Positions 7,227-24,153 of a stretch of 64,000 nucleotides of DNA are shown piece by piece. Source of the DNA: Leucobacter aridicollis (GTDB lineage: Bacteria; Actinomycetota; Actinomycetes; Actinomycetales; Microbacteriaceae); assembly GCF_013409595.1 (NCBI RefSeq), contig NZ_JACCBD010000001.1:1984001-2048000 (forward strand), read 5' to 3'. The position numbers were made by a program, and so were the translations under genes. Position 1 is the stretch's first letter, and each line of letters opens with the position of its first letter. Below the pieces are notes generated by a model. It was not told the DNA's origin, made no database searches, and was given only the letters and a program-made list of their open reading frames with translations.

Positions 7227-8468
7227 CTAGGCCCGCCCAGCGGCTCCGCGCACGGCCTCCAGCCGCGGGTCGATCGAGTCGGCAAACAGTGAGATCTCCT
7301 GCTCACGAACTCCGTTCCTCCGCGCGCGCTCTCGCCAGTCGGCGATCGCATCGGCGACTGCCCGCATGCGTGCCCGAGCTTCCGCAATGGTCAGGCTGCA
7401 GGAGGCCGCCAGGTCAAGCAATGCGTCGGCCTCGTTCTCGATGCTATCAGCGCCCATAATCGACGTTGAACGCCGCTGCCAGAGGTCGGGGTTGGGGTTG
7501 ACATCGAACGCAGGGCTGAGCGCCCAGAAACGACGGGCGGCGAGGAATCCGTGGTTCCTCAGGTGATCGTCGGTATTGCCGAGCGCTACCGAGGCCACCA
7601 CCCGGCCGAACAGTTCGTGGTGATCGCCGACGAGGTCATCCGAGAGATCTCGCATGGCATCTGCGAGCTCGCCATAGTCGCGATGCTCGCCGTCCGCAGC
7701 TCCAAGCGCGGTCATCGCGCTGATGTATCCGATGCGTCCGCCCGCAGCTGCGCGATCGAAGCGGCGAAGCAGCAGCACGCTTCGCTCTCCGACTGCGGTC
7801 AGCCGTCGGCTGGGGGTGCGTAGACCGGCATCGCCCAACAGATCGAGCGCTGTCGCCTCCCAGGCCATGACATCCCACCTGTCGCTCCCGTGCGGGAACT
7901 TCGCGATCGCGAGCGCGCCGTCTTCGAGCCGCACGGAAGCCTTTGGCCGTGCCCCTCCGAGCCCCGTCGTGCCGGTATCGAGAAGCTGCTTGATCGCCCC
8001 ACGCGGATCCTCATCCGCCACGAGCGCGTCAGAGGCGCGAAGCAGCTCCGGGAGGGAAACCAGTTGTGGAACGGTCGATGGCGGGCCACTAAAGCCCGTT
8101 TCGCCGGCGAGGCGAAATCGCAGCGCACCCTGACGGGTGTCGTCGCTCACGCCCAGGAGAAAGTCGAGGTCGTCAAGGCCGCGCGGTGATCGACCCTCCG
8201 AGCGCGCACGCGACCGCTCTGCCTTTTCGATGAGGTTTCTACCCCAGCGATCAGGAGCGCTGTCCGCGAAGGCGCGCACAAGCCCCGGCTGGTATTGCGC
8301 TCCTGTCACGAGCGGAAGCGCAGGATCAATGCTCGCCGCACCGCCCGCAAGGTACCCCGGGGCGTAGAGGAACGTTGTCGAGACCTGGCCGCGTTGCCGC
8401 GTGACGTGCGCCTGCCCGACGATTGCGGGGCCTCCCTCGCGATCAACGAACACCTCAATGGTGGTCAT
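7227..8468 (-). CDS. hipA: HipA-type serine/threonine kinase toxin
   Basis: HipA toxins are kinases; the Escherichia coli protein phosphorylates glutamyl-tRNA synthetase and causes growth arrest and persistence. This 413-residue protein has a HipA N-terminal domain (about 1–145), the Gly-rich nucleotide loop GTTGLGGARPKAS (166–178), the catalytic stretch NTDDHLRNHGF (298–308) and the metal-binding FDVNP (321–325). All expected active-site residues are present, so it should be functional. Its ATG overlaps the stop of hipB by 4 bp (ATGA), which is typical of toxin–antitoxin pairs. Confidence 0.93.
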   Translation of the reverse strand: MTTIEVFVDREGGPAIVGQAHVTRQRGQVSTTFLYAPGYLAGGAASIDPALPLVTGAQYQPGLVRAFADSAPDRWGRNLIEKAERSRARSEGRSPRGLDDLDFLLGVSDDTRQGALRFRLAGETGFSGPPSTVPQLVSLPELLRASDALVADEDPRGAIKQLLDTGTTGLGGARPKASVRLEDGALAIAKFPHGSDRWDVMAWEATALDLLGDAGLRTPSRRLTAVGERSVLLLRRFDRAAAGGRIGYISAMTALGAADGEHRDYGELADAMRDLSDDLVGDHHELFGRVVASVALGNTDDHLRNHGFLAARRFWALSPAFDVNPNPDLWQRRSTSIMGADSIENEADALLDLAASCSLTIAEARARMRAVADAIADWRERARRNGVREQEISLFADSIDPRLEAVRGAAGRA

Positions 8469-9661: not shown

Positions 9662-10396
9662 ATGACATCACACACCGAGACCACCCCGATCATCCTCGTT
9701 CCCGGGCACTGGCTCGGCGCCTGGGCCTGGGACGAGGTCGTCGAACACCTCGCCGCCACCGGGTACCGCGCCAGCGCGCTCACGCTCCCTGGCCTCGATC
9801 CGGCAGATCAGGATCGCGCCAAGCGCATCCTCACCGACCAGGTTGCGGCGCTCGACACCGCGGTCCGAGCGTGCGGCGCTCCCGTCACCCTTGTCGCGCA
9901 CAGCGGCGCGAACGGGCCGGTAACGACGCTGCTCGACCGCTCCCCCGAACTCGTGGAGCGGGTGGTCTGGGTCGACAGCGGACCCGCCTCCGACGGGTTG
10001 GCCTTCGCGCCGGACTTCCCCGAGGACCTCGCGGGGCTCCCGCTCCCCGACTTCGATGCGCTCGGCGAGCAGGCCAGCCTCGCTGGACTCAGCGAAGCCA
10101 CGCTCGACAGGTTTCGCGAGCGCGCGGTCGCAGAACCCGCGGGGGTGCTGCGCGAGCCGGTGCGACTCGGCAACGATGCCCGGTACGAGGTGCCGACGAC
10201 GTTCGTGTGCTGTTCCCTCCCGAGCGCGCAGGTGCGGGAGCTCGCGACCGCGGGCCACCCCATGTTCGCCGAGGTCCCGCGCTTTGCTGACGCCCGCTAC
10301 GTCGACCTCGCGACCGGGCACTGGCCGATGTGGAGCCGCCCGCGCGAGCTCGCGGAGATCATCGCCGCAAAGGCTGGGGCGCGTCCCGCGAGATGA
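9662..10396 (+). CDS. alpha/beta hydrolase
   Basis: A 244-residue alpha/beta hydrolase. The oxyanion strand IILVPGHWLGAWAWDEV opens the fold. The nucleophile elbow is AHSGANG near residues 79–85; Ser is present, but the usual G-x-S-x-G begins with Ala. The catalytic His is in LATGHWPMWSRP near the C-terminus. The mature sequence most resembles esterase-like members; the substrate is unknown. GGGAG lies 11–12 nt before the ATG. The last 38 bp overlap the convergent fusion gene. Confidence 0.85.
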   Translation: MTSHTETTPIILVPGHWLGAWAWDEVVEHLAATGYRASALTLPGLDPADQDRAKRILTDQVAALDTAVRACGAPVTLVAHSGANGPVTTLLDRSPELVERVVWVDSGPASDGLAFAPDFPEDLAGLPLPDFDALGEQASLAGLSEATLDRFRERAVAEPAGVLREPVRLGNDARYEVPTTFVCCSLPSAQVRELATAGHPMFAEVPRFADARYVDLATGHWPMWSRPRELAEIIAAKAGARPAR

Positions 10397-12170
10397 CTTC
10401 CGCGAGTTGCGCGGGGTGAGTGAGATGTGGATGGTGTCCCGCATCCGGGATCGTCACCACCTCGGTGGCGGGGCGTTGCGCCAGGATGCCGGCGACGTCT
10501 GTGTCGAGCGGATCGCGTGCTCCGACGACGACCCGCAGCGGGCCGTCGTAGTGGAGGAGCGCATCCTGAAGGTCGGCTCGCCACCGGGACGAGGCTGCCT
10601 GGTCGAGCTGCGCTGCGACACGCTTCGCACCGCCACGCCTGAGGTCCATCACTGTCGACGCCAGCGAGACCTCTGCGCCAGTCGTGCCCGTCAGCCGTGT
10701 CGAGAGGCGTGCGGCACTCACTGTCCGGAGGTATCCCGCCACCATCCACCGGGGCGCCGCACGGAGCGCTGGGCGCGGTTGCAGGAAGAACGGCGAGACG
10801 AGCGTCAAAGATGACACGGCCGCAGGGTTCAGCTGGGCCGCGCGAAGGGCTGCGGCTGCACCGATCGAGTGCCCGACGAGATGAACACCTGCGCTCGGCA
10901 TGACGGCCGGCAGCCACGTGTCCCAGTCGACAGCGCCCCGCCCACCGCTGAGACCGAGGCCAGGCAGGTCAACGACCGTTCCCGACAGACGATCAGCAAC
11001 ACCGGCCCACGTGTCCGCGTTGATGGGCAGGCCTGGGAAGACGAGCAGGCGCGGCTCCTCAGCCCCCAGTGCGAACGTGCGCACGCCGGCAGCGCTCGCA
11101 ACGCGACGCCCCGTGCCAGCCGCTTCTCCGAACCGGTGAGCCGCAAGATAGTCGGCCCACCGTTCAAGCGACGCGAGGACGTTCGGATGGACGAGTCCGT
11201 GCCGCGCCGCAAGGGTCCGCGCCGATCCGGTCGGATACCGATCGGTCGACATGAACGACAGCGTCTCAGGGTCCGCCTTCGTCAGCCACCGCGGCAACCG
11301 CCGAATGGCGGACACGGGAAGCCGCAGTCGGGGCACTGCGACCTCGAGGTGGTGGCCGACGTGGGTGAGCAGGTCGCCGAGTGCCGGGGTATCCTCGTCG
11401 AGCACCCAGTAGGCCTGCCCAGCCGCGGCAGGGTCCCCAGCTGCCCGCTCCATGAACGCGGCGAGGTAGTCAACGGTAACCACGGGGAGAAACACATCAC
11501 GACCCCCGGGAAGCGCCGCAATCTCGCCGCGATACAGCTGTCCGATTGTCGACGCGAGGCCGATAAGCTGATCCGATTCCCCGGAGACACTGTGCCCGAT
11601 GACGCTCGACGGATTCAGCACCGTCCAGGGAATTCCCCGCTCGGTGGCGAGCGCCTGGAACACAGCGTCCGACTCCATCTTCGATCCCTCGTACGCGCCG
11701 GCCTCGACATACACCTTCGACCGATGGCGGTCACTCCAGGGTACGGATGCCGGATCCTGCCCTCCGACCCGGTACCCGGAGACGTGCAGCACCCGCTGGA
11801 GACGCGGCAGCTTGGCCGCGCACTCAAGGATTCGCTCGACGATCCCGACGTTCGCCTCGCGTGCCTCTTCAATGCTCATGCCGAAGCGATAGAGCCCCGC
11901 GCAGTTATGAATCTCGGTAATCGAACCGAACTGGCTGAGGCCGCCGGCGAACATCTCCGGCGCGGCGAAGTCGACGAGGGCAGTGCGAAGCTCACCGCGG
12001 GCTTCCCGTTCCCGCACCCAACGCTCGAGTGTGGATCCCGATTCCGCGGTTCGGACGGCAGCAACAACGCTCACCCCTGCACGCACGAGCTGGAGCACGA
12101 GGTGCTTCCCGACGAGGCCCGACGCCCCAAACACCAGCGCATGCCGAGACGTCGGCTCCGCACCGCTCAC
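10359..12170 (-). CDS. SDR–alpha/beta hydrolase fusion protein
   Basis: A 603-residue two-domain protein. Residues 1–345 form an extended short-chain dehydrogenase/reductase with the NAD(P) motif GASGLVGKH (about 15–23) and the active-site YEGSK motif (about 160). From about 365 an alpha/beta hydrolase follows, with RLLVFPGLPINADTWAGVA, the nucleophile elbow GHSIGAA (about 443) and the late DAGHHPHL catalytic His. Both active sites look intact. The combination suggests sequential reduction/oxidation and ester or thioester hydrolysis of one substrate, which is inference. Its ATG overlaps the stop of the TetR gene by 4 bp, so the two form an operon. The 3' end overlaps the convergent hydrolase gene. 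Confidence 0.82.
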   Translation of the reverse strand: MSGAEPTSRHALVFGASGLVGKHLVLQLVRAGVSVVAAVRTAESGSTLERWVREREARGELRTALVDFAAPEMFAGGLSQFGSITEIHNCAGLYRFGMSIEEAREANVGIVERILECAAKLPRLQRVLHVSGYRVGGQDPASVPWSDRHRSKVYVEAGAYEGSKMESDAVFQALATERGIPWTVLNPSSVIGHSVSGESDQLIGLASTIGQLYRGEIAALPGGRDVFLPVVTVDYLAAFMERAAGDPAAAGQAYWVLDEDTPALGDLLTHVGHHLEVAVPRLRLPVSAIRRLPRWLTKADPETLSFMSTDRYPTGSARTLAARHGLVHPNVLASLERWADYLAAHRFGEAAGTGRRVASAAGVRTFALGAEEPRLLVFPGLPINADTWAGVADRLSGTVVDLPGLGLSGGRGAVDWDTWLPAVMPSAGVHLVGHSIGAAAALRAAQLNPAAVSSLTLVSPFFLQPRPALRAAPRWMVAGYLRTVSAARLSTRLTGTTGAEVSLASTVMDLRRGGAKRVAAQLDQAASSRWRADLQDALLHYDGPLRVVVGARDPLDTDVAGILAQRPATEVVTIPDAGHHPHLTHPAQLAEVISRDAPQPLRR

Positions 12171-12832
12171 GCTCCGGCCACCTGACCGGTGCGCATCGCG
12201 ATCATGTCGGCGAGGAGATCAGCGGTCGACTCAAGCGGCTGCGTCGTGCGCATGGCCCGGGACAGCACGACTGCCCCCTCTACTGCAGCAACGATTGCGG
12301 TTGCGAGCGACAGTGCGTCCGCGGCGCTCAGCCCCTCGGACTGCAACAGCCCCGCCGTCGGCTCGATCCAGGAGCTGAAAGCGCGCTCGCACGTCGCGCG
12401 AAGTCGATCGCTCTCGGCGCCCATCTCGAGCGTCACAACGGAGACTGGGCACCCCAGTCGGTAGTCGCTCTCGCTCACGATTGTGGCGACCGCGGCAATG
12501 ACCGCCCGGACCGAGCCGGCGACGCTCCCCTCGGACTGTGCTGCCTCGCGCAGCAGCTCCTCAAACTGCGCCTGAGCGAGCTCGACGGCGGCGGCACCGA
12601 GGCCCTCCTTGCCGTCCGGGAAGTGAAAGTACATCGAGCCCTTCGGTGCCCCAGCATGCTCCGTGACAGCCGCAAGCCCGGTGCCGCTGTAGCCGTTGAG
12701 CTGGATGAGTTCAAGCATTGAATGGACGAGACGGGCTCGCGTTCGCTCCCCTTTGGAGAGCCCGTCCGCCGAGGAGGAAGCCGCCGCAACTAAGGCCCGG
12801 GCCACGCTGGAATCTGATTCAGTGGGTTGCAT
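12167..12832 (-). CDS. TetR regulator, LmrA/YxaF-like
   Basis: A 221-residue TetR-family repressor with the N-terminal helix-turn-helix (GYSGTGLAAVTEHAGAPKGSMYFHFP). The C-terminal region ESDYRLGCPVSVVTLEMGAES matches the LmrA/YxaF-type ligand domain. The upstream palindrome ATAGAC-CA-GTCTAT contains TAGACC, which is also the half-site core of Bacillus LmrA/YxaF operators. That supports autoregulation plus control of the overlapping SDR–hydrolase gene. I chose the ATG at 12832, since a -10 TATTAT (12839–12844) leaves only 6 bp to it; a longer frame would start inside the operator region. Confidence 0.88.
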   Translation of the reverse strand: MQPTESDSSVARALVAAASSSADGLSKGERTRARLVHSMLELIQLNGYSGTGLAAVTEHAGAPKGSMYFHFPDGKEGLGAAAVELAQAQFEELLREAAQSEGSVAGSVRAVIAAVATIVSESDYRLGCPVSVVTLEMGAESDRLRATCERAFSSWIEPTAGLLQSEGLSAADALSLATAIVAAVEGAVVLSRAMRTTQPLESTADLLADMIAMRTGQVAGA

Positions 12833-12841
12833 GATTCCATA

Positions 12842-12855
12842 ATAGACCAGTCTAT
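12842..12855. promoter_or_regulatory. TetR (LmrA/YxaF-type) operator
   Basis: A perfect inverted repeat ATAGAC-CA-GTCTAT begins 10 bp before the TetR start and overlaps the -10 element at 12839–12844. Binding here would block initiation directly. Confidence 0.68.
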
Positions 12856-12928
12856 ATATTTTCTTCACATACGTGTGCGCCAGGCCCGACCCGGACGAGC
12901 GACACGGCGGCGCTTTGCGGGCCCCGCG

Positions 12929-13432
12929 TCAGGGCCCGAAGACCAACCGGGTCACGAGTTCGTGCCGGTCGCGTGACTCGTCGCCCAGGGATGCGAGGAA
13001 GCCGGCGAGGCTCTCGGCAACGACCGTCGACTCCTCGAACTCCGGCTCCTCGCCGTACACAACGGCGCCGTCAGCGCGCACAGCCAAGTAGGCGTAGTGG
13101 CCGCGAACGCAGAGCAGGATCGGCACGTGCGCGCTCCAGAACTCCCGAACACGAGCGGCCTCGCGTTCAGTCGCCGCCACCTCAAGGCTAAGCGTTTCGA
13201 ACGCGTTCCACGCGAAGGCGTCATCCGTTTGGCCACCGTAGTCAGCTAGGCTCAAGAACCACACCGCGTCGTCCGGAGCCGACAGCGAGGCGAAGGCCGA
13301 AACCCAGTCCACGAGACCGTCCGGCGCGCCAGCGAGCGGCCGGGGTATGGCCTCATCGCGCGGTCGGTGGGCGGGGGCGCTCACCCACCCCGATCCCGCC
13401 AGGTGAGCTATGGCCTCTGCTGCGGCATTCAT
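12929..13432 (-). CDS. SMI1/KNR4 (SUKH)-like protein
   Basis: A 167-residue acidic soluble protein whose second half (DAVWFLSLADYGGQTDDAFAW, then VPILLCVRGHYAYLAVRADG and FEESTVVAESLAGFLASL) fits the SUKH superfamily. Many SUKH proteins are immunity proteins for polymorphic toxins; no toxin gene is beside this one. I chose the ATG at 13432, as the longer frame upstream runs through duplicated mutM sequence in the wrong frame. It lies immediately outside the mutM-bounded segment. Confidence 0.6.
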   Translation of the reverse strand: MNAAAEAIAHLAGSGWVSAPAHRPRDEAIPRPLAGAPDGLVDWVSAFASLSAPDDAVWFLSLADYGGQTDDAFAWNAFETLSLEVAATEREAARVREFWSAHVPILLCVRGHYAYLAVRADGAVVYGEEPEFEESTVVAESLAGFLASLGDESRDRHELVTRLVFGP

Positions 13433-13466
13433 CGTTCGAACAGTGTAAGGCACTCGCGACGCGTAC

Positions 13467-13553
13467 CTACCGCTTACGTTGGCACCGCGGGCAGTAGTGG
13501 CTCGACCGCCCACCAAACGGGACGCGCTTGATCGCGGTGCCGCAGCGCGGGCA
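13467..13553. repeat. left copy of the mutM-end direct repeat (possible att site)
   Basis: An 87-bp direct repeat starting at the stop codon of the mutM remnant; it matches 20388–20474 at 86 of 87 positions. The two copies lie 6,921 bp apart and bound a segment of accessory genes. Confidence 0.85.
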
Positions 13554-13611
13554 TGCCTCTCCCCCCGCGCCCGTAGGCGTTCAGCGAGTGCGCGAAGTGC
13601 CCCCGCTGTCC
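13467..13611 (-). pseudogene. mutM: mutM 3'-end remnant
   Basis: This stretch repeats the last ~145 bp of the intact mutM at 20388–21338, same orientation. From the stop codon inward the first 87 bp match at 86 positions; the next ~57 bp match at about three quarters and carry one extra C in a C-run (six against five). The frame therefore reads FAHSLNAYGRGG as in MutM and then shifts, destroying the zinc finger. Nothing upstream is MutM-like. It is best explained as the other half of a recombination that duplicated the mutM 3' end. Confidence 0.88.
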
Positions 13612-13918
13612 TCGTGTGAGACATTCAAGTTGGATAGGGGCCATCGCATACCCGTCCAAGATCACTAACAAGTTGGCGTGTGGATGTCGTTGGCAACCCA
13701 CACTCAGACCAGCGATGCCCGTCGCAACGCATCGCATCGCATGCGAGCACCGATCGGGTCCGCCACGGTATCGCTGATACGACCCAAGTACTTCAAGTCG
13801 TTTTGCAAGCTGCCTGTGGGCCTCGGATGGCTGGTCTTTCGCCGCCTGCTCCCGACAAGCCGATCCGCAACCAGCAAAGCGCCGAGCGCCTGAGACTGCA
13901 CTGCCCCAACGTTGCCAG
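13612..13918. other. no gene recognised (307 bp)
   Basis: This stretch lies inside the left end of the mutM-bounded segment. Only short frames without recognisable domains are present on either strand. It may contain decayed element DNA. No transposase or integrase similarity is apparent to me. Confidence 0.5.
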
Positions 13919-14704
13919 CTACTGGGCATGAAGTGCGCGTGTAATCGCTTCCTCGATCTTGTCCGCCCTCAAGACGGTAGACCCTTGCCCATTCGCGTAG
14001 TGGTGCATTCGAATGACGCGCTGGTGCGCTCCATCCCCAAGAACCAGATCGACGGCATCCGCGATGCGACGGTCGCGGCTCCTATGCGCCCCCGTCAACC
14101 AGTCGTGCGCCGCCTTCCCCATCCCGACGAGAACTGGTGGTTGGCCCCCTGTTCCAGCAAGACAAAGGCGTAGCTCCTCTTTCAATATCTCCGCACACCG
14201 AGCGACATGATCAACACCCACCTCCATGTCACTCTTGATCTTCGATTCGAGGTCCTGGGCATTCGGCGTCGCAACCAGCTTGAATACGTCGGTCATGTAA
14301 AACGCTGGAATCGGCGTACTGAATCGCCGGAGACTTTCCGCAAAAGACTTTGACAGGGTCGTATCCGGCCCGTGATTGTGAAAATTCGCCCAATCGGGAA
14401 TCGTGGACGGGATATCAGTGCCACCCATGTTTATGCCGAAAAACACCACCCCAGTCGAGAACGGTTCCAGCGCGGTGAAGTCGGCTTCGTTGTCTGCAGT
14501 AATCGGTGCGAGTTCCTGCGTGGTTACCCCCCATCGGGACCACGACGCTATTTGCCCCATTCGCCACAAATTGGCATATTCCGGGTGCGTCAACGACAGA
14601 TCACGTAGCCCTTGATAGATGGAAAACGGGATGCTCAGGGTGGGCATAGTAGCGAACCTTTCGTCTGCTGGAATGCTAAGGCGGATCTGATTTACCAGTC
14701 TCAT
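13919..14704 (-). CDS. uncharacterised protein, possibly uracil-DNA-glycosylase superfamily
   Basis: A 261-residue soluble protein. Several stretches fall in the order seen in UDG-superfamily enzymes: TGVVFFGINMGG (about 84–95; compare the GINPG-type motif A), PAFYMTDVFK (about 133–142), PVLVGMGKAAHDWL (about 188–201) and a late RMHHYAN (about 231–237; compare the H-P/S motif). NFHNHGPD near 107–114 is also distinctive. These resemblances are by eye only, and substrate and activity are unknown. Base composition is lower in G+C than the surrounding genes, and it lies in the mutM-bounded segment, so it was probably acquired. It has no strong Shine–Dalgarno sequence. Confidence 0.5.
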   Translation of the reverse strand: MRLVNQIRLSIPADERFATMPTLSIPFSIYQGLRDLSLTHPEYANLWRMGQIASWSRWGVTTQELAPITADNEADFTALEPFSTGVVFFGINMGGTDIPSTIPDWANFHNHGPDTTLSKSFAESLRRFSTPIPAFYMTDVFKLVATPNAQDLESKIKSDMEVGVDHVARCAEILKEELRLCLAGTGGQPPVLVGMGKAAHDWLTGAHRSRDRRIADAVDLVLGDGAHQRVIRMHHYANGQGSTVLRADKIEEAITRALHAQ

Positions 14705-14988
14705 GACAATTGGTCTGCGTGCGCAAGTGGGGTTTGATGCTCGTGTGGGTCGTCTCCCGGAGAAGGCTTGCTGACCTGAGCCGAGACCGGCCTGCTACAG
14801 GGCCACTGGGTCATCTGTTCGTATAGGGATCGGCTGCCCAGACGAGACGGATAAATCCGCGTCCTCGGGAGTAGTTCCAATCACCGTGCGGAGAAGGCGG
14901 GCATTGATCTCGTTGGGGTCCTCCAAAGCCTTGGAGCGGCAGTTCGCATTCCTTCTGCGTCGAACCGTTCTCGGCGCGAGGTCACAGA

Positions 14989-15984
14989 TCACCAGGCGTA
15001 GGACATCGGAGCGACACCCGGGCCGGGCCAGATCTTGTCCAGCTCCGCCAGCGTTTCGGCGTCGAGCTCGATGCTCAGCGCGTCGACAGCAATTTCAAGC
15101 TGTTGTGTTGTCCGGGAGCCTGCGATGACCGTTGAGACAATCGGCTGGTGCAGCAGCCATGCCTGAGCGACTTCGGCCGAACTGTGCCCCAGCTTCGCGC
15201 ACAGCGCTTCATATTCGGTCAACTGGTCGGACAGTGCCGCGTAGGCTTCGCTCTGCAGCGCACGGCGCTCGGTCTTCTCGCCCTCCCGGGGGCGCCCGGC
15301 CAGGACGCCCATCGCCAGCGGACTCCAGGGGATCAGCCCGATCCCGAAGTGCCCAAGCGCCGGGATAAGCTCCTGCTCAACCGCGCGATTGATGAGGTTG
15401 TAGCGACTCTGTTCGGACACGAGTCCGAGAATGCTGCGGTGATGAGCCGTCAGCTGGGCAGTGGCGACGTCCCAGCCTGCGAAGTTCGAGGAACCGACGT
15501 AAGTGATCTTGCCTTCGGCGACGAGCTGGTCCATAGCCTGCCAGATCTCCTCGAACGGTGTCGCACGGTCAACGTGGTGCATCTGGTAGAGGTCGATGTG
15601 GTCGGTCTGCAGCCGTCGCAGGCTGGCCTCGCAGGCGCGCTTGAGATGGTACGCCGAGAGCCGTCGGTCGTTTGGCCCGAGACCCATCGGCTGATAGGCC
15701 TTGGTCGCGAGCACGATATCGTCCCGATGGCCGGACTTCTTCAGCCAGCTTCCGACGATCTCCTCGGAGGTGCCGTAGCCCTGGGCCATGTCGGGCCTCT
15801 GAGGGCCTCCGTAAACGTCGGCGGTGTCGAAGAAGTTCACGCCGAGCTCGATCGCCCGATCCATGATCTCGAATGCCTCGGGCTCATCTGTGGCATCGCC
15901 GAAGTTCATGCAGCCCAGCCCGATCGCGCTGACGAGAAGCCCTGATCGGCCGAGGTGCCTGTATTGCATAGTGTTCTCGGTCAT
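14989..15984 (-). CDS. aldo/keto reductase
   Basis: A 331-residue NADPH-dependent aldo/keto reductase. The catalytic tetrad is recognisable: Asp and Tyr in NFFDTADVYGGPQ, Lys in IVLATKAY and His in DLYQMHHVD. YVGSSNFAGWD and the C-terminal STVIAGSRTTQQLE form the cofactor pocket. ATGs at 15984 and 15969 are both possible; I list the former. It lies in the mutM-bounded segment next to a broken cyclophilin-like gene. These two families, with an XRE regulator, often travel together in bacterial accessory clusters. Confidence 0.92.
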   Translation of the reverse strand: MTENTMQYRHLGRSGLLVSAIGLGCMNFGDATDEPEAFEIMDRAIELGVNFFDTADVYGGPQRPDMAQGYGTSEEIVGSWLKKSGHRDDIVLATKAYQPMGLGPNDRRLSAYHLKRACEASLRRLQTDHIDLYQMHHVDRATPFEEIWQAMDQLVAEGKITYVGSSNFAGWDVATAQLTAHHRSILGLVSEQSRYNLINRAVEQELIPALGHFGIGLIPWSPLAMGVLAGRPREGEKTERRALQSEAYAALSDQLTEYEALCAKLGHSSAEVAQAWLLHQPIVSTVIAGSRTTQQLEIAVDALSIELDAETLAELDKIWPGPGVAPMSYAW

Positions 15985-16115
15985 GCGTTCCACGGTATGG
16001 AGTCGAACGAAGCCGAGGGAGACTCTCTCGGTACCCCCACCGAGCGGAACTCCCCAGGCTCTGCCGAACATGATTGCCTAGATTTCCAAGTCCACTGCAC
16101 CACAGGGAGCGCGCT

Positions 16116-16528
16116 ATGAATACGAGACCCAGCATCGCCGCCCTGTCAACAGCCGCCGCGATGTCTGCCGCATTCGCCTCATGCGGCGCTCAGGGCCCCG
16201 AGACGAGGCCAACCACATCTTCTGAACGATCCGAGCCGTCAGAGTCTACGCCGGAATGGAAAAGATCAACTATCCGCCACGGAGGTTCGGCGCCACGGGC
16301 AACGCGGGGATGGCACCTGAGGTCGGCGATCTATTCTCCTGCGTACCGTGGAGCAACTTGGGCTTCTTCTACGAGACCGGATTGCTCGGCCAGTCCCGAG
16401 ATCTCATCCGGCTGGGAACGACCGATGACCTCGAGGCAGTCATGGAGCTCGAGGGGACGGCAGTGACGATCGATATCGCGGAGTGGGCGGGCGAAACGGC
16501 GGCGCTCGCTACCTCTTTTTATCGGTAA
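16116..16528 (+). pseudogene. cyclophilin-like fold lipoprotein, deleted and frameshifted
   Basis: The 5' part encodes a signal peptide and lipobox-like site (MNTRPSIAALSTAAAMSAA… FASC), followed by a Ser/Thr/Glu-rich linker. The 3' part, in another frame, encodes the second half of a cyclophilin-like fold protein: MEKINYPPRRFGATGNAG, APEVGDLFSCVPWSNLGFFY and LIRLGTTDDLEAVM. The first half of that domain (about 60 residues) is absent. The two frames meet near 16240–16256, where VYAGMEKI continues upstream only to a stop at 16223. A deletion with loss of frame explains this. The end overlaps the convergent XRE gene by 20 bp. Confidence 0.72.
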
Positions 16529-17420
16529 GGGGAACGTCTGCGGCCCGTGTGGGCGCTGCGTACTCGCTGGCAGCCCAGGAGGCGAGCAGATGCAGTTTCT
16601 CCGCCGACTCCGATCCTGGTTCCGCGGCATAGATCGTGATCGACAGCCCCGGCTCGGATTCCATCTCCATGCCCTCGTAAGCGAGCGTCATCTCGCCGAC
16701 CACCGCATGGTGGAAGGTCTTGAACCCCGTGCCGTGATGGCGGACGTTGTGCGCGCCCCAGCGAGCGCGGAAGTCGGTGCTGCGGGTGGAGAGCTCGCCG
16801 ATGAGATCGTGCAGCTCCTTGTTGTGCGGGTCGCGACCGGCCTCAGTGCGCAGGATCGCGACCGTCACATCGGCGAACACCTCCCAGTCAGGGTAGAAGT
16901 CGTGGGCTCGCTCGTCGAGGAACGTGAAGCGGGCGATGTTCGGCGGCTGCCCCTGGATCCGGCCAGGCATATCGAAGACTTCCTTGTAGAACGCACGCGC
17001 CAAGGTATTGGTCGCGAGGATGTCCATCCGTCCGTTGCGCACGAACGCCGGCCCGCCCGTCACCGCGTCCAGCATCCACTGCAGGCTAGTATGCGGCTGC
17101 CAGCTCTTGGGATTCCTGCGCCGCGGCGGACGCGCCACAGGGCTCGCGGCGTGGGCGAGATCGAATAGGTGGGCGCGCTCGGCGTCGTCGAGGCGAAGCC
17201 CCTTGGAGATCGCGTCGAGGATCTCGGGGGACGCTCCGCTGATCGAGCCTCGTTCGAGCTTGGTGTAGTACTCGACGCTCACCCCGGCGAGGGTCGCGAC
17301 CTCAGTGCGTCGCAGGCCTTCGACGCGGCGGTTGGTGCCGGCGGGCAGCCCCACCTCGTCCGGGGTCACCCGAGCTCGGCGAGAAGTCAGGAACTCGCGT
17401 ACCTCTGCTCGATTGTCCAT
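16509..17420 (-). CDS. XRE-family regulator with MmyB ligand-binding domain
   Basis: A 303-residue regulator. The N-terminal helix-turn-helix (RRTEVATLAGVSVEYYTKLERG, about 37–58) is followed by the MmyB-like domain (about 105–275), marked by FVRNGRMDILATNTLARAFY and FRARWGAHNVRHHGTGFKTF. MmyB domains have a PAS-like fold and can bind fatty acids, which is family knowledge. It is divergent from the zinc alcohol dehydrogenase gene 177 bp away and probably controls it. This is a common arrangement in actinobacterial accessory clusters. Confidence 0.93.
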   Translation of the reverse strand: MDNRAEVREFLTSRRARVTPDEVGLPAGTNRRVEGLRRTEVATLAGVSVEYYTKLERGSISGASPEILDAISKGLRLDDAERAHLFDLAHAASPVARPPRRRNPKSWQPHTSLQWMLDAVTGGPAFVRNGRMDILATNTLARAFYKEVFDMPGRIQGQPPNIARFTFLDERAHDFYPDWEVFADVTVAILRTEAGRDPHNKELHDLIGELSTRSTDFRARWGAHNVRHHGTGFKTFHHAVVGEMTLAYEGMEMESEPGLSITIYAAEPGSESAEKLHLLASWAASEYAAPTRAADVPLTDKKR

Positions 17421-17597
17421 GCTTCAACGATACGTGGGACCGCCGAGCCAAAGGAGTCTCTGGCAGTACCCCTTTTCAGCGAGCCTCCCACTAGCACTCG
17501 AATACCCAGAACATGGATATACCTGGCGCTGTCACGCGTTGCCCGGCACCCGAGAACCATGGGATCACGGAATCCCCGAAAGAAGGAGAACCCTGCC

Positions 17598-18617
17598 TTG
17601 CGCGGAGTCATCATGCATTCCCCCGGAGACGTCCGCATCGAAGAGCGCCCTGATCCGACCATCGAGCAGCCCACCGATGCAGTCATTCGCGTCACCGCAT
17701 CCTGCATCTGCGGCTCGGACCTGTGGCCGTATCGCGGCGCAGAATCCGTTGAGGATGCACCCATGGGCCACGAATACGTCGGTGTTGTCGAACAGATCGG
17801 CAGCGCCGTCAAGGAGATCCAGGTCGGCGACTACGTCGTCGGTTCCTTCGTCGCTTCCGACAACACCTGCGAGATCTGCCTGGCGGGCTTCCAGTCACGG
17901 TGCATCCATCAGGTAATGATCGGAGCCATCGGTACCCAGGCTGAGAAGGCCCGCATCCCCTTGGCCGACGGCACTCTGGTGAAGGTCCCCGGCGAGCCCA
18001 CCGAGGCGCAGGCCAAAAGCCTGCTGGCGGCATCTGACGTCCTCGGAACCGGCTGGTTCGCCGCCGTAGCCGCAGAGACGGGCCCGGGCAAGACCGTCGC
18101 TGTCGTGGGAGACGGAGCAGTCGGGCTCCTGGGCATCCTCGCCGCCAAGCGTCTCGGCGCGGAACGCATCATCGCTTTCTCCCGCCATGCCGACCGCCAG
18201 GCCCTGGCAAAGCAGTTCGGAGCGACCGACATTGTCGAAGAACGCGGCGAGGCAGGGAACGCGAAGATCAAGGAGCTCACCGGCGGGTACGGCGCTCACT
18301 CGACCATCGAAGCGGTCGGCACCCAGGAGTCCATGCTCCAGGCCATCGGGTCCACCCGCCCCGGTGGGCACGTCGGCTATGTGGGCGTGTCCCACGGCGT
18401 CGAACTCGACGGTCTCGACCTGTTCTTCGCCACCGTCAACCTGCTCGGCGGACCCGCCCCCGTGCGCCGATTCCTGCCGGAGCTCATCGACCTGATCATG
18501 ACTGACCAGATCGACCCGGGCATCGTCTTCGACCTGAGCCTGCCGCTCGATCAAGCTGCGGAGGGCTACAGGGCGATGGACGAGCGCCGTGCCACCAAGG
18601 TGCTGCTCACCCCCTGA
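17598..18617 (+). CDS. zinc-dependent alcohol dehydrogenase family protein
   Basis: A 339-residue medium-chain dehydrogenase. CICGSDLW (Cys near residue 38) and GHEYVGVVEQIG supply catalytic zinc ligands, and the NAD(P) motif VAVVGDGAVGLLGILAAKRLGA starts near 170. The structural-zinc lobe is reduced (NTCEICLAGFQSRC). I chose the TTG at 17598 because AAGGAG lies 9 nt upstream; the next ATG (17613) has none. Substrate unknown. The MFS gene follows after a strong hairpin, so expression of the two may be unequal. Confidence 0.9.
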   Translation: MRGVIMHSPGDVRIEERPDPTIEQPTDAVIRVTASCICGSDLWPYRGAESVEDAPMGHEYVGVVEQIGSAVKEIQVGDYVVGSFVASDNTCEICLAGFQSRCIHQVMIGAIGTQAEKARIPLADGTLVKVPGEPTEAQAKSLLAASDVLGTGWFAAVAAETGPGKTVAVVGDGAVGLLGILAAKRLGAERIIAFSRHADRQALAKQFGATDIVEERGEAGNAKIKELTGGYGAHSTIEAVGTQESMLQAIGSTRPGGHVGYVGVSHGVELDGLDLFFATVNLLGGPAPVRRFLPELIDLIMTDQIDPGIVFDLSLPLDQAAEGYRAMDERRATKVLLTP

Positions 18618-18629
18618 ACCTCGCCGCCC

Positions 18630-18663
18630 GAGCGCCCCGTGGAGCACAATCCACGGGGCGCTC
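18630..18663 (+). terminator. hairpin between alcohol dehydrogenase and MFS genes
   Basis: A perfect 14-bp stem (18630–18643 with 18650–18663, arm GAGCGCCCCGTGGA) closes a 6-nt loop, 13 bp after the dehydrogenase stop. No U-tract follows, so it may only partly terminate or may stabilise the upstream message. Confidence 0.72.
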
Positions 18664-18690
18664 ATCCATGACCACGAACGAAAGCCCACC

Positions 18691-19956
18691 ATGCCCCCTC
18701 TAGACACCGCCCGCAAGGCGGGCCCTGTCCTCGCGACGCTCCTCCTACTGCTGACCGTCTTCGGTCCCATCTCGATGGATCTCTACCTGCCCGTCTTGCC
18801 AGCCCTGACCACGGAGCTCAGTGCGAGCACCTCGGCGGCGCAGTTCACCCTCACCGCCTGCCTGATCGGCCTGGCCCTCGGCCAGATGATCGCCGGTCCG
18901 CTCTCGGACCGGTTCGGTCGCAAGAGCCCCCTCATTGTCGGCCTGGTCGCCTACATTGCGGCCTCGGTGCTGTGCGCGGTGAGCCCGTCGATTGAGACGC
19001 TGGTCTCCGCCCGCCTCGTCCAGGGCCTCGCGGGTGCGGTCGGCATCGTCATCTCGCAGGCAGCAGGGCGCGACGTCTACTCGGGCAGCGCGCTGATCCG
19101 CTTCTATGGCAAAGTCACCGTACTCGGCGGCCTCGCAGCGATTATCGGTCCCTTCCTCGGCGGGCAGCTCGCCCGGTTCACTGACTGGCGCGGCATCTTC
19201 CTGTTCCTCGCGTTGTTGGGTGCCCTCATTATGGCCGCTACTCTCGCGATCTACCGGGAGACTCTCCCGAAGAACAAGCGCACCACAGGTGGCATGGCCC
19301 AGTCGACACGCGACTTCCGCACCCTATTCTCCGACAGGCTGTTCGCCGGTGCAGTCCTGATCTGCGGCCTCACCCACGCTGCATTGTTCGCCTATCTCTC
19401 GGGCGCAACCTACATCCTCCAGGACGGATACGGTCTCACTCCGCAGGGCTACGCGATGGCCTTTGGCGCGAACTCCGCCGGCTACATGGTCTTCGGCTGG
19501 CTCGGCGGCCGCCTTGCTGACCGGTGGTCCGAGCGCGGAGCTCTCGGGCTAGGTGTCCTCGTCACGGGCGTCGGATCGCTCGGTCTGCTGTACACCGGCA
19601 TGGCGGACGCGCCATTGCCGATCGTGCTGGTTTCCCTGTTCGTCCTTGCTTCCGGCGTCGCCCTCGCCGCGCCGCCTTCGGCCTCATTGGCGTTGACAGA
19701 CTACCCGGAGCTTGCTGGCACCGCTTCCTCCGTTCTGGGCTGCGCCCGTTTCGGGCTCGGGGGCATTGCCGCGCCCCTGGTCGGGCTCGGCGGCGCGACT
19801 GCAGTCCTGCCCCTAGGCATCGTGTCGGTCTCTTGCGTCGCTCTCTCGTTCCTCGCGTTCGTCCTCTTCGTCGGTCGGAATCGGGCACCAGAAAATCTGT
19901 CGCAGCGCGAAGGGGGAACGCAGAGCGAACCTCAGTGCGCAGGCTCCGCCAAGTGA
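18691..19956 (+). CDS. Bcr/CflA-family multidrug efflux MFS transporter
   Basis: A 421-residue, 12-helix proton-driven exporter. The family signature is clear: ISMDLYLPVLPAL in helix one, GQMIAGPLSDRFGRK as motif A near residue 70, and GAVGIVISQAAGRDVY in helix five. Characterised Bcr/CflA proteins export bicyclomycin, chloramphenicol, sulfonamides or cysteine; the substrate here is not known. The C-terminus is polar (GGTQSEPQCAGSAK). It is the last gene of the mutM-bounded segment and follows the alcohol dehydrogenase on the same strand. Confidence 0.93.
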   Translation: MPPLDTARKAGPVLATLLLLLTVFGPISMDLYLPVLPALTTELSASTSAAQFTLTACLIGLALGQMIAGPLSDRFGRKSPLIVGLVAYIAASVLCAVSPSIETLVSARLVQGLAGAVGIVISQAAGRDVYSGSALIRFYGKVTVLGGLAAIIGPFLGGQLARFTDWRGIFLFLALLGALIMAATLAIYRETLPKNKRTTGGMAQSTRDFRTLFSDRLFAGAVLICGLTHAALFAYLSGATYILQDGYGLTPQGYAMAFGANSAGYMVFGWLGGRLADRWSERGALGLGVLVTGVGSLGLLYTGMADAPLPIVLVSLFVLASGVALAAPPSASLALTDYPELAGTASSVLGCARFGLGGIAAPLVGLGGATAVLPLGIVSVSCVALSFLAFVLFVGRNRAPENLSQREGGTQSEPQCAGSAK

Positions 19957-20387
19957 ACAGCAGCGCTGAAGGGCCGACCACCAAGGTGAGGAATGCCAGC
20001 GGCAAGTGCACTGCCGGTCGAGCGCGATCAACGCGAAGAGGTCTCACGCAGTACATCTGCTGCTTCACGGATTCAGCTCCTACGGCCCATCCGTCAGCTG
20101 CAGCTTGCTCGCTCCACGCCGCACTCCGGAACGTTCAGTTGGCCGGCCTCGTCGAAGGCGGCGTCGATCTAACAGCCCGACTGGCCGTCGTCGAAGCTTT
20201 CGTCGGCCATGCCCACCACCGGCACGAAATCAATGGCATGAGACGAAGCAAACGCCTCACTTCCGTGGCTCGTCATACGATTCGCAGGTCTGTTCTGCAC
20301 GAGCCATTCACCCGCGAATGGAAAAGAACGAGTGATCGGTTTCGACACACAGCCTCCTCGACGCGTGTATCTAATACACCGACGCTG
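19957..20387. other. no gene recognised (431 bp), right end of the mutM-bounded segment
   Basis: Neither strand carries a convincing gene. A minus-strand frame of about 35 codons starts near 20274 and ends near 20171 (MTSHGSEAFASSHAIDF at its start) but matches nothing I recognise. A small inverted repeat at 20365–20379 lies next to the mutM end. Decayed element DNA is likely. Confidence 0.5.
20365..20379. repeat. short perfect inverted repeat at the segment boundary
   Basis: GTGTAT-CTA-ATACAC is a perfect 6-bp inverted repeat 8 bp from the mutM stop codon. It could be an operator, a weak hairpin, or an arm or core site of the recombination that built the segment. Confidence 0.45.
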
Positions 20388-20474
20388 CTACCGCTTACGT
20401 TGGCACCGCGGACAGTAGTGGCTCGACCGCCCACCAAACGGGACGCGCTTGATCGCGGTGCCGCAGCGCGGGCA
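20388..20474. repeat. right copy of the mutM-end direct repeat (possible att site)
   Basis: These are the last 87 bp of the intact mutM. They match 13467–13553 at 86 of 87 positions; similarity drops to about three quarters further into the gene. Confidence 0.85.
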
Positions 20475-21338
20475 CGCTTCTCCCCCGCGACCGTACGCGT
20501 TCAGGGAGTGTGCGAAATACCCGGCCTGCCCGTTCACGTTGACGTACTGTTCGTCGAAGCTCGTGCCGCCCTCTAAGAGGGCCTGGTCGAAGACCTCGCG
20601 GAGGTGGTGCAGCAGCGCGACGGCGCCGCGCTGGGAGACGGCAGACCCCGGGGTGTCGGGGTGCACGCGGGCACGCCAGAGGGTCTCGTCGGCGTAGATG
20701 TTGCCGACGCCGCTGACGATGCGCTGATCGAGCAGCAGCTTCTTCGCACCGACGCTGCGCGAGCGGATCGCGGCGACGAAGCCGGCGTCGTCGAAGTGCG
20801 GGTCGAGCGGGTCGCGGGCGATGTGGGCGGCCTGCGCCGGAATCGACCCGACCGGCGACGTCGGGGTGAGCGAGTCGAGCGCGAGCGACCCGAAGAGCCG
20901 CTGGTCGGAAAAGTCGAGCCGCAGCTCGCCGTGGTCGGGGTGCTCGATCCAGGTCCGGATCCGCACGTGCCGGTCATCGACCGCGTCGGTGGCTCGCAGC
21001 AGCATCTGGCCGCTCATGCCCAGGTGCGCGAGCAGCGCCGTGTCGGGGCCGGCGAGCCCGCCCGTGTCGACTGCGAGCGGGATCCATAGGAACTTGCCGC
21101 GCCGCAGCGGCGCGGTGAGGGTGCGGCCGGTGAGGCGGCGCTCGAAGTCGGCCGCCCGGCCGCGCCCAGTCTCCTCCGAGAGGGTGCTGCCGTGCCCGCC
21201 GAGGCCCGGTTCCTCGCCGAGGGGCGTGTGCCGCTTGAGCGCGCGCGGGTCCATCACCTCGACGGCGAGCACGCGTGCGCCGGTGACGGCGGGCGCGAGC
21301 CCGGCGCGCACGACCTCTACCTCGGGAAGCTCCGGCAT
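20388..21338 (-). CDS. mutM: formamidopyrimidine-DNA glycosylase
   Basis: MutM (Fpg) excises 8-oxoguanine and other oxidised purines and nicks the abasic site. The 316-residue protein begins MPELPEVE, giving the catalytic Pro2 and Glu3. RRGKFLWI holds the beta-strand Lys, and VGNIYADETLWRARVHP is the helix-two-turn-helix. The C-terminal zinc finger has CPRCG and CPRCQ pairs. A loop near 40–65 is longer than usual. It is the last gene of coaD–DUF177–rpmF–rnc–mutM. Its 3' end is duplicated at 13467, and the gene itself remains intact. Confidence 0.97.
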   Translation of the reverse strand: MPELPEVEVVRAGLAPAVTGARVLAVEVMDPRALKRHTPLGEEPGLGGHGSTLSEETGRGRAADFERRLTGRTLTAPLRRGKFLWIPLAVDTGGLAGPDTALLAHLGMSGQMLLRATDAVDDRHVRIRTWIEHPDHGELRLDFSDQRLFGSLALDSLTPTSPVGSIPAQAAHIARDPLDPHFDDAGFVAAIRSRSVGAKKLLLDQRIVSGVGNIYADETLWRARVHPDTPGSAVSQRGAVALLHHLREVFDQALLEGGTSFDEQYVNVNGQAGYFAHSLNAYGRGGEACPRCGTAIKRVPFGGRSSHYCPRCQRKR

Positions 21339-21341
21339 CGA

Positions 21342-22136
21342 CTAGCGTCCGGCGGCCTGCGCGCCGGCCTTGCTCGCGTGGCGGGGCTTGCGCTTCGCGC
21401 GGGCGGCGCGGAGTTGGGCCGCGGCGTCGCGAGCCGCGGCGAGCTCGGCGACCTTCTTGCTCGTGCCCTCACCCCGGCCGACGACGTCCCCGAGCCGAAC
21501 GGTCGAGCTGAACACGCGCGCGTGATCCGGACCGGTGCCCTCGGTGTCGTACGCGGGGCTCGGGAGCCCGCGCACGGCGGCCTCCTTTTGCAGGGTCGTC
21601 TTCGGATCGAGTACCTCGGAGAACCTGTCGGGATCGTCGAGCAGCGGCTCGACGAGCTGCAGTACGAAGCGCGCCGCGGTGTCGGGATCGGTCGAGAGGA
21701 AGACCGCGCCGATCACCGCTTCGACGGTGTCGGCGAGGATCGAATCCTTGTCGCGGCCGCCGGTCTGCTCTTCGCCCTTGCCGAGCCGCAGCTCGGCGCC
21801 AAGGTTGAGCCCCCTGGCGATCTCCGCGAGCGCGAGCGTTGAAACGAGTGCGGCGCGCCGCTTCGCGAGCTCCCCCTCGGTGAGGTCGGGGTGCTCGCGG
21901 TAGAGCTTCACCGTGACCGCCTGGCCGAGAATGGAGTCGCCGAGAAACTCGAGCCGCTCGTTGTGCGGGGCCGCCCCGTGCTCGTACGCCCACGAGCGGT
22001 GGGTCAGCGCGAGCTCGAGCAGCTCCGGCTCAACCGCAACGTCGAACGCGTGAAGAAAGCCGCCTGGCACTCCCTGAGGGGTGCCCGACGGCTCTCCGTG
22101 TTCGTGTCGCGGGAGTGAGTGATCATTCCCCGTCAC
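21342..22136 (-). CDS. rnc: ribonuclease III
   Basis: RNase III cuts double-stranded RNA, including rRNA precursors. The 264-residue protein carries the signature NERLEFLGDSILG (about 59–71) and the metal-binding Asp/Glu of DSILADTVEAVIGAVFLS. A double-stranded-RNA-binding domain follows (about 175–245), with GEGTSKKVAELAAARDAA as its last helix. The C-terminal tail is basic (AKRKPRHASKAG). mutM starts 3 bp after its stop, and rpmF lies 9 bp upstream. Confidence 0.96.
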   Translation of the reverse strand: MTGNDHSLPRHEHGEPSGTPQGVPGGFLHAFDVAVEPELLELALTHRSWAYEHGAAPHNERLEFLGDSILGQAVTVKLYREHPDLTEGELAKRRAALVSTLALAEIARGLNLGAELRLGKGEEQTGGRDKDSILADTVEAVIGAVFLSTDPDTAARFVLQLVEPLLDDPDRFSEVLDPKTTLQKEAAVRGLPSPAYDTEGTGPDHARVFSSTVRLGDVVGRGEGTSKKVAELAAARDAAAQLRAARAKRKPRHASKAGAQAAGR

Positions 22137-22145
22137 GGGTAAGTC

Positions 22146-22349
22146 TTACGCGTCAGCTACGCGACGACCCTTGTACTCGAGGAACAGAGCGTTGCCCTGC
22201 GAGTCCTCGACCACGCGGGCGCGGTGCGGGAGGCTGTACACGGTCTTGCCGTTCTCGACAGTCTTGACGAGTGCGGGTACCGAAGCCTTCCACGCCGAAC
22301 GGCGGTGACGGGTGTTCGAACGCGACATCTTGCGCTTGGGAACAGCCAT
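22146..22349 (-). CDS. rpmF: 50S ribosomal protein L32
   Basis: A 67-residue basic ribosomal protein. It begins [20 protein letters not shown], the L32 signature. The Cys-pair zinc ribbon of other L32 proteins is absent, so this is the zinc-independent (C-minus) type. I chose the ATG at 22349 because the mature protein starts with A-V-P-K-R. AAGAGAG lies just upstream. It is between the DUF177 and rnc genes. Confidence 0.96.
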
Positions 22350-22362
22350 GATGCTCTCTTTC

Positions 22363-22908
22363 CTAGTTACTCTCAGATTCGGGCACACCCGAACCTAATG
22401 ATTCTACAGCCTTGAAGTCAGCCAGTGCCGCCCAACGCGGATCAATATCCACATTAGTCGCCATCGCAGCCTCGGCATCGCGCAACTCGCCGGACTCGGG
22501 ATCGAGTCCCGGGCAGTCCGGGCGACACACAGGCTGGAACGGCAGTGCAAGCACTACCGCGTCTCGGAGCGGGGGTTCAAGATCCACGTGATCACCGTGA
22601 ACCCCATACTCGTCGGCCTCCGTAGGAGTATACGCGAAAAGTTCCTGAAATTCGACTTCGAACGGCGCGGTGAAGTCGCGCAGGCACCGTCCGCACTCCG
22701 CGTGCATGGTCGAACGCGCCGTCGCCGACACCAGGATCCCCTCGTGCACGGACTCGAGGCGCACGTCGAGCGAGAGCTTCTCGCCCTCGGGGATTGCCGC
22801 AAGGGCCTCTCCGAATCGGTCGGGCACGACGATCTCGAGCTCGCGCTCGCGCATCTCCCCCGGGCGGTTGATGATGTCGCGGACGCTCTCTTCGTACAGC
22901 CGCGCCAT
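22363..22908 (-). CDS. DUF177 (YceD) protein
   Basis: A 181-residue member of DUF177/YceD, normally located before rpmF and linked to large-subunit rRNA in plants and bacteria. [20 protein letters not shown] near residue 73 and [12 protein letters not shown] near 128 provide the paired Cys motifs (CGRC, CRPDC). The ATG at 22908 overlaps the coaD stop by one base (TAATG), suggesting translational coupling. Confidence 0.92.
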
Positions 22909-23402
22909 TATGCGGGCCTCGTCGTGGCGAGGAAGCGGGCCACCGCGGCCGGAACGTACGGGCTCACGTCGCCGCCGAGGGAGGAGACCTGGCGCACGAG
23001 CGTGCTCGAGACGTGCGCGTGCGACGGCTCCGGCAGCATAAAGACTGTCTCGACGCCCGCAAGGCTCCGGTTCATGAGCACCATCGGCGTTTCGTACGCG
23101 ACGTCGAGCTGCGATCGGATGCCCTTCACGAGCACCGACGCGCCAACCTCGGTGCAGTAGTCGACGAGCAGCCCGACCGACCACGATGCAACGATGACGT
23201 TGTCGGGGGTCTCGGGATCCTCGTCAAGCGACTGCTGGATCAGCGACATCCGCTCGGAGATCGGCAGCATCGCCGACTTTCCTGGATTGTGGACAACAAG
23301 TACGTGGACCTCGTCGAAAACGGCCGCCGCGCGCCGAATCACGTCGAGGTGCCCGAGGGTGATCGGATCGAACGACCCGGGAACCACTGCGATTTTGCTC
23401 AT
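22908..23402 (-). CDS. coaD: phosphopantetheine adenylyltransferase
   Basis: CoaD joins AMP from ATP to 4'-phosphopantetheine, the penultimate step of coenzyme A synthesis. The 164-residue length is standard. [15 protein letters not shown] carries the nucleotidyltransferase T/H-x-G-H motif, [12 protein letters not shown] is the substrate-binding segment, and HVSSTLVRQ matches the ISSTxxR motif. I chose the ATG at 23402; a longer frame upstream is not family-like. It heads the operon that ends in mutM. Confidence 0.97.
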
Positions 23403-23436
23403 GCCTCTACAGTACGCGGTCGAGCCGCAAGATGCC

Positions 23437-24153
23437 CTAAAGTCCGTGCTGCTTCGCAAAGATTACGGCGTGAACCCGGTCTCGAAGCTGCAGTTTCGAC
23501 AGCACGCGCCCAACGTGTGTCTTCACTGTGGATTCGGAGAGGAACAGCTCTGCGCCGATCTCCGAGTTGTTCTTGCCGTCGGAGATGAGTTTGAGCACGT
23601 CGAGCTCACGCTCAGTCAGCTCGCCGAGCTCGGCCGCGACGGGCCCGCCAGCCGCGGGCGCCGGCGCGGCGAAGAGCGCCGCGGGGGCGGCAGCACCCGT
23701 ATCGCGCATCCGCTCGATCATGCGGGCCGTCACCGCAGGAGCCATCGCCGCGTCGCCGCTCGCGACGCGGCGGATCGCATCGACGAGCTCCGTCGGTCGC
23801 GCGTCTTTCAGCAGGAATCCGCTCGCGCCGGCCTGGATCGCGCCGATGGCGTACTCGTCGAGGTCGAACGTCGTGAGGACGAGCACGCGAGTCGCCGGGA
23901 ACTCGGCGACGATGCGCTTCGTCGCGTCGATGCCGTTCATGCCTGGCATCCGGACGTCCATGAGCACGACATCGCAGCCGCTCCCCTCGCCCGACAGCCG
24001 TGCGAGCTCAGCGAGCGCCTCGCCGCCGTCGCCTGCCTCCGCGACGACCCCCATATCCGACTCCGAGAGCAGCACGAGCCGAAACCCCGTGCGGATCAGC
24101 TCCTGGTCGTCGACCAACATGATCCTGATCTGATGCGGATCGCTCACGATCAT
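23437..24153 (-). CDS. NarL/LuxR-family response regulator
   Basis: A 238-residue response regulator. The receiver domain (about 8–128) has the acidic pair in MLVDDQE, the phospho-acceptor Asp in [13 protein letters not shown] and Lys in FLLKDA. An Ala/Pro-rich linker (about 150–170) leads to a LuxR helix-turn-helix: [15 protein letters not shown] and [17 protein letters not shown]. It overlaps the upstream kinase gene by 4 bp and is its likely partner. The linked ABC transporter genes are the probable target. Confidence 0.95.

Follow-up and report, generated by a model that had tools for sequence, protein, structure and literature searches.

The window analyzed here is a stretch of 64,000 nucleotides from the genome of Leucobacter aridicollis (G000 in the genome set described below), which consists of a single contig of 3.57 Mb. 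Between a gene for a protein of 170 amino acids and an intact mutM gene, it holds a segment of accessory genes together with a second copy of the mutM 3' end. The features of this region, in window coordinates, are as follows.

12929 to 13441, minus strand: 170-aa flank gene with no Pfam match; a homologue lies behind a single mutM in G020 and behind a remnant in G063.
13467 to 13593, minus strand: displaced mutM tail, 127 nt, frameshifted, with an attR-like right half (repeat search and alignments).
13594 to 13628, minus strand: attP-type arm on the element side of the junction (15.7 bits, rank 1 of 127,932 window positions; next 6.0).
13629 to 20387, no strand assigned: inserted segment without an integrase, G+C 0.634 versus 0.69 in both flanks.
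13919 to 14644, minus strand: UDG-superfamily-like protein, 241 aa, G+C 0.57, candidate DNA glycosylase.
14989 to 15963, minus strand: aldo/keto reductase (Pfam, E 1.8e-73).
16509 to 17420, minus strand: HTH regulator with a MmyB-like ligand domain (Pfam).
17598 to 18617, plus strand: zinc-dependent alcohol dehydrogenase (Pfam).
18691 to 19956, plus strand: MFS transporter (Pfam).
20388 to 20513, minus strand: present mutM 3' tail, 126 nt including the stop codon, with the zinc finger inside, native-type (alignments).
20388 to 21338, minus strand: intact mutM/fpg, 316 aa, the integration target (Pfam Fapy_DNA_glyco, H2TH and zf-FPG_IleRS), with the junction between residues 275 and 276 (GYF/AHS).

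The two copies of the mutM 3' end form a direct repeat in the same orientation (13467-13565 and 20388-20486; 97% identity over 99 nt), which was the longest repeat reported within positions 10000-24000 at the settings used, and a 301-base query over the left copy found these two places in the genome and no third. Aligned from the breakpoint described below to the stop codon, the tails agree at 33/39 positions in the first part and then at 86/87, with one inserted base in the left copy. The first-pass annotation, which had reported an 87-bp repeat with one mismatch, was right about the coordinates, orientation and identity of that core, but the full homologous unit is longer by 39 columns: it starts at a fixed point in mutM, includes the stop codon and measures 126/127 bp, and its two copies lie 6,920 bp apart. 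Its description of a broken left copy with a frameshift and an intact right copy also stands: the left copy is a 3' fragment whose frameshift is its one inserted base, and the right copy encodes all 316 residues and the three MutM domains. The zinc finger (Pfam residues 286-313) falls within the swapped part of the protein. The differences between the two tails are clustered (P 0.0035, an optimistic value computed post hoc with the breakpoint already seen), and the sharp step from 33/39 to 86/87 is consistent with a conversion tract.

Among the genes of the segment, the one at 13919-14644 encodes a product that might possibly be a DNA glycosylase, to judge from weak Pfam and fold matches: the protein matches Pfam UDG at E 0.004, below the family cut-off, 5 of 14 members of its family match Pfam UDG at E values up to 1, and the best of its fold matches to UdgX has an E value of 9e-5 with a TM of about 0.4. 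Proteins of this type form a small family, with 16 members in the protein search and occurrences in 2 of the 297 genomes of an order sample, the window's own being included in both counts. A similar regulator-dehydrogenase pair is carried by Streptomyces plasmids, and the stretch is also found elsewhere in relatives. A Pfam scan of the main cargo proteins found no relaxase or conjugation genes of the kind that characterize ICEs and IMEs. The first-pass annotation had seen no integrase, and this was borne out when a profile of the serine integrase family introduced below was run against the six frames of the whole window, including the gaps at both ends of the cargo, with a best E value of 0.37 and therefore no recognizable remnant; the window's genome as a whole has no relative of that integrase at E 1e-10.

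The MutM protein search covered 60 genomes, of which 37 belong to the genus, and 20 further genus entries, three of which had already been searched; 54 genus genomes were seen, and mutM with its downstream sequence was taken from 51 of them, G002, G009 and G026 being left out because mutM was incomplete or not found. An extra mutM tail is present in 13 of these 51 Leucobacter genomes, a count that is perhaps too low since many stretches are cut off before 20 kb or by the end of a contig: G000, G003, G004 (two), G007, G012, G023, G027, G030, G036, G062, G063, G064 and G067. The extra tails of G007 and G036 are weak matches, and those of G030 and G064 lie on a different contig from mutM. The nine same-contig remnants (G000, G003, G004, G012, G023, G027, G062, G063 and G067) have one breakpoint in common, at which the displaced tail of the window also begins. 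In all nine genomes the displaced tail starts after the codons aligned to Gly-Tyr-Phe, where YTTY is followed by GCGCACTC or a variant of it, and the exact crossover falls within the shared YTT or on its border. From that same breakpoint on, the intact mutM genes of G003, G004, G012 and G023 have a different, element-type sequence (starting with AGCAGATATCTACATTCATATGG in G003 and G012), and the displaced tails of G003, G012 and G023 are native-type. The intact gene of the window has no such element-type tail; its tail is native-type, as are, by eye, those of G007, G027, G036, G062 and G063. Two further genomes, G065 (L103) and G031 (L093), have an intact mutM with an element-type tail and no displaced tail in the stretch examined, which in G031 ends 4.1 kb after mutM. 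In G004 (L034) two displaced tails follow each other (2652-2722 and 4826-4950), as if a second element had integrated behind the first, and the inner tail, taken together with its post-stop sequence, matches the tail of the intact G067 mutM at 91% identity over 154 bp.

Outside the genus but within the family, 3 of 107 genomes have a clear second tail close to mutM, namely G092, G094 (two tails) and G157, the last of which is the Salinibacterium genome of the integrase set below and not a separate case; weaker second matches in these genera (E about 1e-8) were taken as other Fpg/Nei-type proteins. The two displaced tails of G094 (L222) also lie in a row (3540-3574 and 5075-5109), with strong attP-type arms. 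An expectation that element-borne tails from different genera would resemble each other more closely than native tails do was not clearly upheld over 120 nt (86/120, 90/120 and 85/120 for element-borne pairs versus 80/116, 75/115 and 91/120 for native pairs); only their first 45 nt are more alike, with 39/45 in each of three pairs versus 36/44, 33/44 and 37/45.

Empty sites with a single mutM end, which the first-pass annotation had proposed to look for in relatives, were found in G013 and G020, both of other species. The empty G013 and the filled G067 can be aligned through mutM (90.6%) and again from the duplicated tail (85% and 88%), and the extra stretch in G067 is one 11.7-kb island with a tail duplication; a further difference between the two, of about 0.6 kb, lies 2.5 kb downstream. 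In G020 the empty site concerns the flank gene of the window, a homologue of which follows the single mutM after 113 bp; in the window's genome and in G063 this gene comes directly after the displaced tail. G019 has a homologue with 39% identity at a distance of 2.3 kb from mutM and no remnant, and the mutM-downstream stretches examined in 47 genomes contain no match. The earlier remark that the usual neighbor after mutM is missing is thereby explained in part: the mutM-adjacent gene of G020 sits beyond the left remnant here, with G020 as the only genome in which it was found directly behind a single mutM. It is very improbable that the mutM tail was simply duplicated locally and the cargo inserted between the copies afterwards. 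Both tails of the window are native-type and 86/87 identical at the end, which favors such a history, but the same breakpoint recurs in other genomes, the gene behind mutM in G020 stands behind the left copy here, and that copy is abutted by an attP-type arm with a 5-bp shift.

Two of the Leucobacter islands, those of G003 (6.3 kb) and G012 (11.4 kb), encode a large serine recombinase of 491 and 482 aa, respectively, with Resolvase and Recombinase domains, beside the displaced tail; in a search of 15 genomes for serine recombinase domains, these were the only ones with a match at the mutM island. The G012 island also encodes a Rep-like protein (Rep_OBD, RNA_helicase). Relatives of the integrase were collected and aligned and genome contigs were scanned, and among the best 80 of 88 loci a mutM tail lies 39-225 bp from the integrase match in 6/6 loci at an identity of at least 66% (Salinibacterium, L. 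chromiireducens, two Gordonia, Nocardia thailandica and a Kocuria MAG) and in 0/74 at 45% or less, in the stretches examined, some of which end at contig ends. The integrase is found beside a displaced mutM end in seven elements, namely those of G003, G012, Salinibacterium, Gordonia (2), Nocardia and Kocuria, and the intact mutM of Salinibacterium, 11.1 kb away, has the same foreign-tail start as that of G003. In Gordonia spumicola (L123) there is a second, partial mutM tail (8183-8260) about 1.6 kb from the integrase-side tail. The integrase family is rare: at E 1e-120, a class sample of 394 genomes yielded a single one, which is probably Gordonia sp. ABSL49_1 (L125) and no extra case. More distant relatives occur in phages (28-40% identity in 11 records) and viral contigs (16 loci at 33-41%), and plasmids gave no match to the family. 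The sequences point to large serine recombinases as the probable family of the recombining enzyme. Tyrosine integrases were considered as the cause and rejected, their family being present in 54/54 genus genomes and, among the matches listed, never at mutM.

The junction in the window was compared with those of the integrase-bearing elements by means of a weight matrix built from seven integrase-side arms of other elements, a 35-nt pattern with WTSAAYGT at its far end. The arm at 13594-13628, which directly adjoins the displaced tail, ranks first in the window, as do its far 23 positions alone; the leave-one-out scores of the seven source arms are 17.9-52.4. A control scan of 521,718 bases, from the loci of 29 of the 38 remnant-free genomes, gave one chance match equal to that of the window, in G035 (15.8), with no mutM tail after it, and a next best score of 9.3. 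Compared with the matching GTSAACGT of mutM, the WTSAAYGT motif is set 5 bp farther away from the junction, which is the shift expected of an attP relative to an attB; a shift of this type between attP and attB has been reported for a Listeria phage integrase (PMC3783163). The arms of the other remnants vary: those of G004 (40.3), G067 (38.4 with one base left out in scoring, 19.0 ungapped) and G030 (35.8, at the contig start) are strong, as are G092 (26.2) and G094 (40.1 and 34.4) in other genera; those of G023, G062, G063 and G064 score at background; there is no arm at the weak remnants of G007 and G036; and G031 and G065, with element-type intact tails, gave nothing above 3.

What these islands carry differs from one relative to another. 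Predicted defence genes include a type ISP restriction enzyme (G012), AIPR/AbiU (G004), Fic (G062) and a protein kinase (G063), and the 11.7-kb island of G067 (L105), which has an attP-type arm and no serine integrase domain, encodes GmrSD, a SIR2 protein and the candidate PDC-S61. PADLOC matched 7 of 10 proteins, which had been picked by hand and so yield no rate; the three without a match are the UDG-like protein of the window and one protein each of G067 and G027. Pfam showed no defence family on the G003 island. Different elements, some with predicted anti-phage genes, occupy the same mutM site in relatives.

We consider it highly likely that a mutM-specific large serine integrase once inserted an integrative element between codons 275 and 276 of mutM and that 13594-20387 is the remainder of this element. 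The support consists of the common breakpoint, the attP-type arm, the empty and filled relatives, the cognate integrase in relatives, the element-type tails on the intact mutM genes of G003, G004, G012 and G023 and the lower G+C of the insert, and it upholds the first-pass proposal of a site-specific integration at the mutM 3' end with the displaced end on the far side. The coding sequence of mutM would have served as the attB to which the integrase joined the attP of the element; a new in-frame 3' end with a zinc finger would have come from the end of the element itself, and the old mutM end would have been displaced to the opposite side (13467-13593). In complete relatives the integrase gene starts near that junction; here it would later have disappeared. 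With no serine integrase gene beside the arm, the window contains no more than a relic or a non-autonomous member. Under this simple model the tail of the intact gene should be element-type, so a further step must be assumed, in which tails were exchanged or gene conversion took place between the intact and the displaced copy, and from which the present native-type tail and the 86/87 identity would have arisen; the first-pass statement that recombination restored the gene end is correct as to the pattern, but the 86/87 core is better read as a later gene conversion than as an att core. Against the reading as a whole stand the missing integrase or remnant of one, the native-type tail, the background scores of arms elsewhere and the lack of an arm at the weak remnants of G007 and G036, the match in G035, the fact that G020 alone has the flank gene directly behind a single mutM while G019 has its homologue without a remnant, and the origin of the empty sites from other species.

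An alternative with a sizable chance, although one short of even, is a composite history, in which the displaced tail goes back to an old insertion by a serine integrase whose element has since decayed or given way to another, mutM regained a native tail by homologous recombination, and the genes now present arrived later along different routes. It agrees with the preferred explanation on the junction and differs from it on the cargo. The native-type tail of the intact gene and the lack of an integrase would fit, as would the occurrence of the regulator-dehydrogenase stretch elsewhere in relatives and on Streptomyces plasmids and the finding that the non-coding ends of the segment match no other locus examined except for two short stretches, in G033 and G070, that do not lie at mutM. 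There is, however, no second mobile-element boundary inside the segment, where a search for repeats of at least 25 nt gave only one pair with a copy inside (27 nt, 81%). Alternatively, the island might never have had an integrase and might have moved in trans, as a non-autonomous cassette carrying a mutM tail. Such cassettes are suggested by G004 and G067, which have arms and no related integrase at the island, and by the arms in G030, G092 and G094, but the loss of an integrase explains the same facts, and we regard this history as unlikely for the window.

The mutM family resembles other elements of large serine integrases (phages, ICEs/IMEs and AICEs) in having the recombinase at one end, a shifted motif between attP and attB, a protein gene as target and specificity for a single site; it differs from them in targeting an end that encodes a zinc finger and, in the copy of the window, in the missing integrase. 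As with islands that restore the 3' ends of tRNA or protein genes, the displaced end lies at the far side and the intact gene is kept, and copies are stacked at mutM in G004 and G094; unlike in those islands, what is restored here amounts to an entire protein domain, and in several carriers the new end clearly differs from the displaced one. The islands at mutL of Streptococcus pyogenes also use a DNA-repair gene as their integration site, but mutL is disturbed by them and mutM stays an open frame. The mutT gene, like mutM, deals with oxidized guanine. Streptococcal serine-integrase ICEs target rumA and mutT, and insertion into rumA swaps the 3' part of this gene and changes the C-terminus of its product, which is the likeness to the mutM elements (PMC4701971). 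The targets of these ICEs are described as disrupted, with direct repeats of 2-21 bp (PMC4701971), in contrast to the mutM elements, which supply a homologous tail of about 42 codons so that mutM remains open; the text of PMC4701971 does not name mutM as a target. No naming of mutM as an integration site was found in the literature searched, from which most subscription papers and all supplements were outside the scope: the search terms for a mutM site do not occur in PMC10654092 or PMC5704250, mutM figures only as a typing locus in PMC13310844, and the target genes of PMC10083194, possibly including mutM, could stand in its supplement, outside the search.

The significance of these results is that a conserved DNA-repair gene contains a recurrent and recognizable integration site served by a matching integrase family; this predicts island positions in other genomes and adds one more serine integrase for which natural attB and attP sequences are available. 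Mobile elements are seen here to replace a whole protein domain of a repair enzyme. A broader and rather doubtful generalization would have the mutM 3' end as an exchangeable module, whose zinc-finger end is swapped repeatedly across the Actinomycetes by serine-integrase elements and by cassettes moved in trans, with stacking of cargo that often serves in phage defence; if this were true, the DNA-binding end of a repair enzyme would be partly of mobile origin.
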